Source of the DNA: Betaproteobacteria bacterium
GTDB taxonomy: Bacteria; Bdellovibrionota_B; Oligoflexia; Silvanigrellales; Silvanigrellaceae
Direction of reading: 5' to 3'
NCBI GenBank assembly: GCA_016868315.1
Contig: VGHE01000011.1
Coordinates: 1-64,000 of the forward strand
DNA: 64,000 nt
The translations under genes were made by a program, and so were the position numbers. The notes under the pieces are model-generated. The model was given only the letters and a program-made list of their open reading frames with translations, was not told the DNA's origin and ran no database searches. Position 1 is the stretch's first letter; each line of letters begins with the position of its first letter. Below are positions 51,397-54,694 of this stretch, piece after piece.

Positions 51397-52698
51397 ATGG
51401 AATCCTTGCTGCCACCCGGCTTCGGGCTCGGGGGTCACATCGAAACGACCCTGCGGGGCATATCCCCAGGACAGCTCCATGCAGCGGATTTTCAGGGTAT
51501 CGTTCCAAATTCTGACAATGATTTTATTTTGCGGACACTTATCCTCTCAATGAACGGAGTGGGGGAGACCATTCCCAATCCAGCCGTGGGCTGCATCGCG
51601 CTTAAAAATGATGAAATTATAGGCTTTGGCGCCACGGAAGCCTATGGTGGTCGGCATGCCGAACGGGTCGCGTTTGGCAATCTTAAGGACAACGGCCACT
51701 CCACTGAAAACTCGGCCGTTTATGTCACTCTCGAGCCCTGCTCGCACCATGGCAAGCAGCCACCGTGCTGCGAACTCTTTCAAAATGCGGGAGTCTCTCG
51801 AGTCGTCGTAGCGCTCGGTGACCCCAACCCTCTGGTGAATGGCCGGGGGCTGCGCTACCTCGAAGCTGCAGGCGCTCGAGTGCTCCTCTCTCACGGACAG
51901 TCAGCTGCAGCTGCATCCGCATGGCACTTGCCGTTTCTTGTGCAACAGACGCAGAATCGACCGCTCATTGTGGGAAAGTGGGCTCAAACCCTGGACGGCG
52001 TGGTTGCGGATTCGCACCACAACTCAAAATGGATCACGGGTCCTGAGGCGCGGGCACATGGCCACTGGCTGCGTTTGAAATACGACATCACGGCCGTCGG
52101 GCTGGGAACACTCCTTGCAGACGCTCCGGCACTCACCGCACGTGACTGTTGGCTCCCCAACTCCCGTCAGCCACATGCATGTGTCATCGACCCCTTGGGT
52201 CACAGCATTCCCAGTGACAAACGTTTCCAGGATGCACTGGCGAAGCTCGTTGCCGCAGCTGACAACCGCAAAGTTGCAGTGGTTTGTCCGCGCGAGCACG
52301 TAAAGGAATTGAAGGGGAAACTGCCCGCAGCGGTTTCACTGATTGGTTTTCCGCCTCCGAATGAAGCAGGTAGAATCGGTGAAATGCTCAAAAGCGTTTG
52401 GCAACAAGATGAGACAATCTCTTGGCTCGGACGCATGCCCCAAAGCGTTTACATCGAAGGCGGCTCAACGTTACTTTCGCTCATGATCGAAGCAGAAGCT
52501 CTCGATGCACTCCACGTTTTCATTGCACCCAAGCTGCTCGGTGGAGATGCACACCGCGTAGGCAATGGCACACACAAGTCACCACAACTTTCAATGGCAG
52601 CACATTTTGACATCCTCTCCACGTCTGTCCTTGGCGGTGATATGCTCCTCGAGCTGGTGTCAAAGCCGATCAAAGAATCATTTTTCGTCCGAGGTTGA
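51397..52698 (+). CDS. ribD: Riboflavin biosynthesis deaminase/reductase
   Basis: 433 residues. The N-terminal deaminase has zinc motifs HAER (His87, Glu89) and [11 protein letters not shown] (Cys115, Cys124); the C-terminal reductase contains [12 protein letters not shown] and YIEGGSTLL. Together they convert the pyrimidine intermediate in the second and third steps of riboflavin synthesis. The ATG at 51397 gives about 40 residues before the fold, longer than usual; no better start is seen. Other rib genes are not present. The next gene begins 5 bases after the stop. Confidence 0.94.
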
Positions 52699-52703
52699 GC
52701 GCA

Positions 52704-53786
52704 ATGTCGGAGCTGTCCCAAATATCAGGAACAAATGATTCAGCTGAGTCGGTCACAACACGCTTCAGAACGGACAAACTTACCCCACTGCTGTTGCGTT
52801 TTCTTAACCGACTTAAGCAGACCGGCAAATCAGGGCACACAATATCCGCGTATAGAAACGACCTTTCCATTTTCTGCCAGTTTCTTGTTGCCGAGAAAAT
52901 CGATCCACAGGATTTTCAATCTCATTTTCAGGAGCGGTGGATAGCCTATTTGAGTTCGCGTGGCAGGAAGTCGCAGGCGAGCGTCCGACGCGCACTGATG
53001 AGTGTTCGAACATTTCTGCATTTCCTTGTGAAGGAAAAAATCATCGAGCGCTCACCCATGCTCGAGAGTAAGTCGCCGAGGCAACCCGCGCACGAGTTAT
53101 TGACCGTGCGCCCGGAGCATTACTTTCGCCTTATTCATACGCTGAGCGCGAAAGAAAGAGCTGAGGATCCCAAGGCCATTCGCGACCTGGCTCTCATCCA
53201 GTTGCTCGGAGAATGCGGATTAAAGGCAAGCGAAGTCGCACAAATGCGCTGGTCAGATATTCTGTTCGAAGGAAGTATCAGCGACCCACAAGCAAGCTTG
53301 ACCCTGCGCGTTGCCGGACAAAACGAACGCATCGTCAAAGCGCATGCCGACGTTGCAGCGACTCTCTGGAAACTCAAGGAAGCCAGACAGCAGCTCAATC
53401 TGCCCGCATCACCCCAAGACAAACTGTTTTTCGGATTTCTAAACGTCAGCCGCCGTCTCAAGTCAGACGGTCTGCACCGGCACGGTGTAAAGTTCGTTGT
53501 TTATGAGGTATGTGAAGAGATTCTTGGGATTCCCTACAACTCTGAAAGCCTCCGCAACCATGCCATTCTGCGTTGGCTGGAATTGGGTATCAGCACCCAA
53601 CAGGTTGCACAACTCGCGGGTTACTCTTCATTGAATTCACTCGAACGGTTCAAAATTAAGGCACGTGGCCAGCGTCGTCCGAAGCGTCAGACGAAAAAAC
53701 AAAGCTCATCCGATCAGAAGCAGCCACGCACTGAATCGAAAGCAACCGGCTCCCCCCGCCCTTTGGGAGGAACGTCTAACCCATGA
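52704..53786 (+). CDS. Tyrosine-recombinase fold protein lacking catalytic residues
   Basis: 360 residues from ATG 52704 (GAGG 9 bases upstream). The order is that of XerC/D: SAM-like N-domain (about 25-115, TISAYRNDLSIFCQFL), then the catalytic fold (about 135-320), with a basic Lys/Arg/Ser/Pro tail. Catalytic positions are changed: Arg-I is Lys174 (GLKASE), His-II is Glu281, Arg-II is kept (Arg284), His-III is Tyr307 (AGYSS) and the nucleophile Tyr is Phe316. The codons read cleanly without frameshift, so this is a conserved non-cleaving form. It probably binds DNA but cannot recombine. Coupled to the kinase gene by an ATGA overlap. Confidence 0.9.
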   Translation: MSELSQISGTNDSAESVTTRFRTDKLTPLLLRFLNRLKQTGKSGHTISAYRNDLSIFCQFLVAEKIDPQDFQSHFQERWIAYLSSRGRKSQASVRRALMSVRTFLHFLVKEKIIERSPMLESKSPRQPAHELLTVRPEHYFRLIHTLSAKERAEDPKAIRDLALIQLLGECGLKASEVAQMRWSDILFEGSISDPQASLTLRVAGQNERIVKAHADVAATLWKLKEARQQLNLPASPQDKLFFGFLNVSRRLKSDGLHRHGVKFVVYEVCEEILGIPYNSESLRNHAILRWLELGISTQQVAQLAGYSSLNSLERFKIKARGQRRPKRQTKKQSSSDQKQPRTESKATGSPRPLGGTSNP

Positions 53787-54694
53787 TTCCGAACGTTATT
53801 GGAAGCTGCGAAATCATGGAATTGGTGGGTTCCGGCGGACTCGGAGAAGTCTACCGAGCCATCGACAAAAAGAACGGTCAGACAGTCGCCCTGAAGCGGC
53901 TTCACGACAAATATCAAAACAATCCAAAGCTGCTCGGACTCTTCCATAAAGAAATTCTGATGCACGCGCAGGTATCCCACAAGCACTGCGTGAAATTTAT
54001 TGCTGCAGACCTCACTCCACCGCACGCACACATCGTGACCGAATTCATCGAAGGCATAAACTGCCACTATCTGTTAAAGAAAATCGGCCCGATTCCGCCA
54101 CTTATTGCCTGCTCGATTGTGCTCGACCTGCTGCAAGGGCTCGACCACATTCACTGTCTTGACATGATCCACTCCGACCTCACCCCAGCCAACATCATTC
54201 TTGAGGTGACCGGCCGAACCGTGCTGGCAGACTTCGGGCTCAGTTGCAAACAGGACATTGAAAACTATGAAGGCATGACGGTTGGTACACCAGGATACCA
54301 AGCGCCGGAGCGCCTCACACACGACCCCATGACTCGGGCTGCAGACATTTACAATGCAGGCATTATATTGCACGAGATGTTGATTGGAGACAGGCTATTT
54401 GCCAATGCAGCTCCGAAAGAAGTGCTGGCAGCCATGAAGAATCTTCCCCAACGTTTGCCAAGCACAGGCGACGCGGAGGTGGATGAATATCTCAAGAAAA
54501 TGCTGAAGACCGCTCTGCACATGAATCCGCAGAAGCGCTTCCCCTCTGCGCGGGATTTCATGTTTGCGCTCTACCAAGTCCTGAAAGCATACGACATCCG
54601 GTACACACGCCGCGCGATTCTACAATGGATGATTGACGTAAAGCTCACAACGCTACCACCTGCGGAACCCAAACAAACAATCTATATCCGATGA
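53783..54694 (+). CDS. Hanks-type Ser/Thr protein kinase
   Basis: 303 residues. A single kinase domain: Gly loop GSGGLGEVY at about 16-24, Lys38 (VALKRL), helix-C Glu57, catalytic loop HSDLTPANI (Asp132), DFG 150-152, TPGYQAPE activation loop. The HRD Arg is Ser, as in kinases that do not need activation-loop phosphorylation. No transmembrane or sensor domain, so it is cytoplasmic. The ATGA overlap couples it to the recombinase-like gene before and to the BtuF-like gene after. Substrate unknown; the neighbours are candidates. Confidence 0.94.
   Translation: MIPNVIGSCEIMELVGSGGLGEVYRAIDKKNGQTVALKRLHDKYQNNPKLLGLFHKEILMHAQVSHKHCVKFIAADLTPPHAHIVTEFIEGINCHYLLKKIGPIPPLIACSIVLDLLQGLDHIHCLDMIHSDLTPANIILEVTGRTVLADFGLSCKQDIENYEGMTVGTPGYQAPERLTHDPMTRAADIYNAGIILHEMLIGDRLFANAAPKEVLAAMKNLPQRLPSTGDAEVDEYLKKMLKTALHMNPQKRFPSARDFMFALYQVLKAYDIRYTRRAILQWMIDVKLTTLPPAEPKQTIYIR

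Follow-up and report, generated by a model that had tools for sequence, protein, structure and literature searches.

What function, if any, remains to a protein that is built like a Xer recombinase but has lost most of its catalytic residues? The question is raised by an open frame of 360 codons, closed by a TGA stop, within the window (the whole 64,000-nucleotide stretch of DNA analysed here; Table 1). An earlier note on this DNA had described the product as a stable, non-catalytic protein with a Xer fold, perhaps an architectural DNA-binding factor or a sensor read by the kinase encoded by the next gene.

Table 1. Coordinates within the window of the Xer-like gene, its main features and its neighbours.
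Feature	Position	Strand	Evidence or remark
ribD-like gene, upstream neighbour, separated from the Xer-like start by 5 bases	51397..52698	+	
Catalytically dead Xer-like gene	52704..53786	+	Open frame, Pfam domains, structure model, class-wide orthologs
N-terminal SAM-like core-binding domain, residues ~23-125, with invariant Arg95-Arg96	52770..53078	+	Pfam, model helices, invariant columns
Lys174 codon, position of catalytic Arg-I (XerD R148)	53223..53225	+	Alignment; Lys in 42/42 members
Ala204 codon, position of catalytic Lys (XerD K172)	53313..53315	+	Alignment; Lys in 3/42 members
Predicted helix 259-274 (putative alphaK equivalent), starting R259-H260-G-V-K263-F	53478..53525	+	Model, family conservation, XerH alphaK (PMC5241119)
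Box II, with Glu281 at the His-II position and Arg284 (Arg-II) retained	53544..53555	+	Alignment
Tyr307 codon, position of His-III	53622..53624	+	Alignment
Phe316 codon, position of nucleophile Tyr	53649..53651	+	Alignment
C-terminal tail, residues 321-360, basic, net charge +9	53664..53783	+	Low-confidence region of the model
Ser/Thr protein kinase gene, with 4-base overlap with the Xer-like stop	53783..54694	+	Neighbour in Silvanigrellales only

Two Pfam domains were matched above their curated cut-offs—Phage_int_SAM_1 (E = 1.4e-11, residues 32–112) and Phage_integrase (E = 1.6e-8). An AlphaFold model, built from a 30-sequence alignment, had a mean pLDDT of 86.6, with residues 23 to ~320 mostly well predicted and the C-terminal tail probably disordered; its best matches in the PDB were XerA, Cre, an integron integrase and XerH, at moderate TM-scores (0.4–0.6). 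The SAM-like N-domain, the Phage_integrase domain and the fold match together place the protein in the tyrosine recombinase/Phage_integrase superfamily, and the Xer fold is thus borne out. Scores against the XerC and XerD models (TIGR02224 and TIGR02225) were 84.8 and 91.6 bits, compared with equivalog cut-offs of 335.15 and 329.6, a criterion that is weak when taken alone because the two Xer proteins with intact catalytic residues in the same genome (G000 C2/C3; L034:5342-6532 and L035:4730-5839) also fall far below these cut-offs. The second-best solved structure matched by the family profile was PDB chain 9i5v_14, a chain of 401 amino acids named RaiA, the first ~280 residues of which are a Xer domain; it is apparently a Xer–RaiA fusion or a misnamed chain.

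Catalytic positions were located by alignment with Escherichia coli XerD (a reference sequence that is, by eye, consistent with stretches of 1a0p) and with six local Xer proteins in which the full catalytic set of six is intact. From the set R-K-H-R-H/W-Y, only Arg-II is retained (R247, here R284) and the other five residues are replaced: R148 by K174, K172 by A204, H244 by E281, H270 by Y307 and Y279 by F316. The alignment upholds all five residue assignments of the earlier note; the lost catalytic Lys had gone unmentioned. Across 42 distinct members of the family, the Arg-I column is Lys and the Arg-II column Arg without exception, while Lys is found in the catalytic Lys column in only three. 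The His-II column holds Glu in 40 members, with one Gln and one Ala, the His-III column Leu (31), Tyr (10) or Val (1), and the nucleophile column His (29), Phe (10) or, once each, Tyr, Leu and Val. Judged from these sequences, the active site is dismantled in all 42. The member from genome G019 (L049:6233-7117, L085:6980-7867) keeps the Tyr of the nucleophile column and has lost Arg-I, the catalytic Lys, His-II and His-III. The conserved Glu speaks against retained DNA binding at the former pocket, as it might either push phosphate away or form a pair with Lys174 or Arg284, and the pocket may now serve something other than DNA.

The most conserved element of the family lies elsewhere, in the helix spanning residues 259–274, with a mean conservation of 0.67; the box-II helix reaches 0.58 and the nucleophile helix 0.46. 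This predicted helix opens with an Arg-His-x-x-Lys motif (R259, H260, K263) that is invariant across the family. In XerH, helix alphaK (residues 285–299) is inserted in the major groove, where Lys290 touches a base (PMC5241119). On the evidence of the model, the distance to box II and the alignment with local catalytic Xer proteins, we infer that helix 259–274 is the equivalent of alphaK: Arg259 lies 22 residues before Glu281, and the XerH helix starts 24 residues before His309, although the hmmsearch register for this match is four residues off. Arg259 is also Arg in XerD (R220) and is variable among the local catalytic Xer proteins. Most of the other residues common to the family and XerD belong to the framework (T46, Y50, R96, P125, R160, G172 and E177), whereas R95, K174, H260 and K263 are invariant in the family and differ from the aligned XerD residues. 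Net charge among members ranges from +21 to −8, a spread that counts against a shared DNA-binding role.

A family profile search recovered the dead Xer in 53 of 58 genomes of the phylum, including 38 of the 39 of good quality; four of the five genomes lacking it are 72–85% complete and one is 90% complete. It is normally present in a single copy per genome, and the relatives that carry it include Fluviispira multicolorata, Spirobacillus cienkowskii, Silvanigrella, Oligoflexus and Pseudobacteriovorax. These names make the order Silvanigrellales of the class Oligoflexia the most likely place of the window. Our only look beyond the phylum, a scan of 84,980 species genomes with an alignment-derived pattern keyed to one short motif, returned 30 loci, with titles fitting Oligoflexia apart from loosely named MAGs; a first scan of the genome collection with a single protein as query gave no matches. 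The matches listed from phage and plasmid collections were ordinary Xer and integrase relatives at 24–31% identity, and no publication on the family was among the literature results listed. When E. coli XerD and six catalytic Xer proteins taken from the genomes that carry the family were included in the tree, the family was monophyletic (support 0.988), which points to a single ancestral loss of catalysis.

Comparison with its nearest relative gave a protein identity of 78%, with pN of 0.155 and pS of 0.86 (synonymous sites being saturated), while the neighbouring ribD, at 62% identity and pN of 0.258 against the same relative, evolves faster. On these sequence comparisons, the Xer-like gene is under long-term purifying selection. 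As pN is far below the saturated pS, and as the substitutions at catalytic positions recur across the class, those substitutions reflect neither chance nor decay. The description of an intact frame encoding a stable non-catalytic protein is thus strongly supported, and for the whole class. The ortholog in genome G007 (L040:6459-7528) appears to be split by a frameshift after ~50 residues in the assembly.

We therefore lean, on balance, towards a Xer-type tyrosine recombinase whose capacity for strand cleavage was lost in the ancestor of the class and which persists as a non-catalytic protein that binds chromosomal DNA, probably in a sequence-specific manner. The C-shaped clamp would still grip a fixed DNA site without cutting it, alphaK would lie in the major groove of the bound DNA, and Lys174 and Arg284 would perhaps hold the backbone. 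The architectural DNA-binding factor that the earlier note had offered as one of its two readings gains support, by inference, from the kept fold, Arg-II and the invariance of the alphaK residues. More tentatively, the dead Xer might have become a class-defining chromosome organiser that, bound at a fixed site, takes over or adds to functions of the terminus and outlasts the loss of XerCD-FtsK. More speculative still, and by analogy, it might mark or organise a chromosome region, for example as a barrier to or unloader of SMC/ScpAB; Smc and ScpA are present in its own genome, and ScpA in 54 of 56 genomes, although the Xer-like gene does not adjoin smc or scpAB.

A regulatory pseudo-subunit of the XerCD-dif system, binding dif or XerC/XerD and tuning synapsis or its timing without cutting, would also account for the kept Xer fold. 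Phage_integrase matches in the own genome number exactly three—the dead Xer and the two proteins with intact residues, which lie on other contigs and bear on the question, posed before, of a canonical pair elsewhere—and this genome encodes FtsK-gamma 2 kb past the window on the same contig. However, FtsK-gamma was not found in seven of the eight genomes of family f5, all seven of which have the dead Xer, nor in either of the two genomes of family f8, where the dead Xer is kept and is the sole Phage_integrase match, with no other tyrosine recombinase detected. These assemblies are incomplete (75–94%), but the pattern of absence recurs within families, which makes it unlikely that the dead Xer is only a XerCD-FtsK accessory. 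Moreover, several members end 0–5 residues past the nucleophile position and therefore lack the C-terminal helix through which XerD contacts its partner (PMC5052618). We consider a pseudo-subunit rather unlikely. A search of 28 genomes with the consensus dif returned hits no more numerous than in a backwards control; two hits immediately 5' of the Xer-like gene, in two g5 genomes, were taken as chance, since the remaining g5 genomes read do not conserve the sequence.

Gene neighbourhood bears on two further readings. The usual order in Silvanigrellales is ribD, Xer-like gene, kinase, BtuF-like gene and nuclease, although some genomes show gaps and rearrangements. Elsewhere in the class (L051, L064, L052 and other loci), the Xer-like gene usually adjoins tadA and is divergent from an NtrY/NtrC-like pair and an rRNA methyltransferase-like gene, the tadA and NtrY/NtrC-like names being read from the sequences rather than from a family search. 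As neighbours vary across the class, no functional partner holds class-wide. Were the protein a transcription regulator, modulated in some lineages by the kinase or other signals, its DNA-binding fold with a conserved alphaK and the divergent NtrY/NtrC-like pair in much of the class would make sense, and there is a precedent in Pseudomonas aeruginosa XerC, which affects pyocin expression in a partly recombinase-independent manner (PMC8609362). Yet the protein has no effector domain and there is no conserved target operon, the neighbours in Silvanigrellales not being those found elsewhere in the class, so we regard this role as unlikely.

Less probable again is a partnership with the downstream Ser/Thr kinase, in which phosphorylation of the tail would switch DNA binding. 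The earlier note had spoken of a fusion in an operon: the two genes do overlap by four bases (ATGA), but the proteins are not fused. The kinase gene, which has an intact kinase domain match, adjoins the Xer-like gene here and in five other genomes, all Silvanigrellales, and the basic tail contains Ser/Thr residues. Against this, the kinase gene is absent from the locus in g5 (Fluviispira, Spirobacillus), the genus with most genomes, where the Xer-like gene is kept, and a search of five g5 genomes gave no close match to the kinase; outside Silvanigrellales, three of six genomes searched (G015, G016 and G020) yielded a kinase homolog, always unlinked. Conserved co-occurrence with a kinase, which would mark a kinase-coupled sensor, was thus not seen, and the sensor proposed earlier finds no support as a general function.

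Continued catalysis by other residues, for instance with Lys174 standing in for Arg-I and with a displaced nucleophile, is highly improbable. Lys can in principle substitute for Arg in phosphate binding, and Tyr267 is nearly invariant, but substitutions have removed the catalytic Lys, the two His residues and the nucleophile alike; we judged Tyr267 improbable as an alternative nucleophile, as it is absent in some members and lies within the predicted alphaK helix. A decaying integrase pseudogene, suggested by the lost catalytic residues, was rejected as next to impossible in view of the intact frame, purifying selection and class-wide, single-copy conservation.

The favoured non-catalytic DNA-binding protein can be set beside several known systems, and a practical corollary is that xerC, xerD or integrase annotations in Oligoflexia can mislead. 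XerC and XerD share its two-domain fold and length and form its closest sequence family; they differ in that five of six catalytic residues are replaced here, in the low model scores and in that the genome already holds two intact Xer proteins. Streptococcal XerD-like proteins (NF002685/PRK02436) are Xer homologs with an altered active site encoded beside scpA/scpB, whereas the protein described here reaches 31.3 bits against a cut-off of 178 and its gene is not adjacent to smc or scpAB. Bacillus subtilis XerD, described as a sequence-specific SMC unloader (Karaboja et al., 2021, as cited in PMC12322038 and PMC8357415), offers a likeness in being a Xer protein that acts in chromosome organisation beyond dimer resolution; that XerD is also an active recombinase, unlike the dead family, for which a role with SMC would be an analogy. 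The domesticated Crypton tyrosine recombinases (yeast Cbf2/Ndc10 and Gcr1, and animal DUF3504 proteins) are likewise retained as host proteins with a recombinase domain in which the catalytic site is not preserved (PMC3212892), although they are eukaryotic and transposon-derived and the likeness lies in the fold class. Non-catalytic tyrosine recombinases thus have eukaryotic precedents, and one active Xer of bacteria also acts outside recombination; a family that is dead throughout a bacterial class and strongly constrained would allow the Xer functions that need no cutting to be cleanly set apart.
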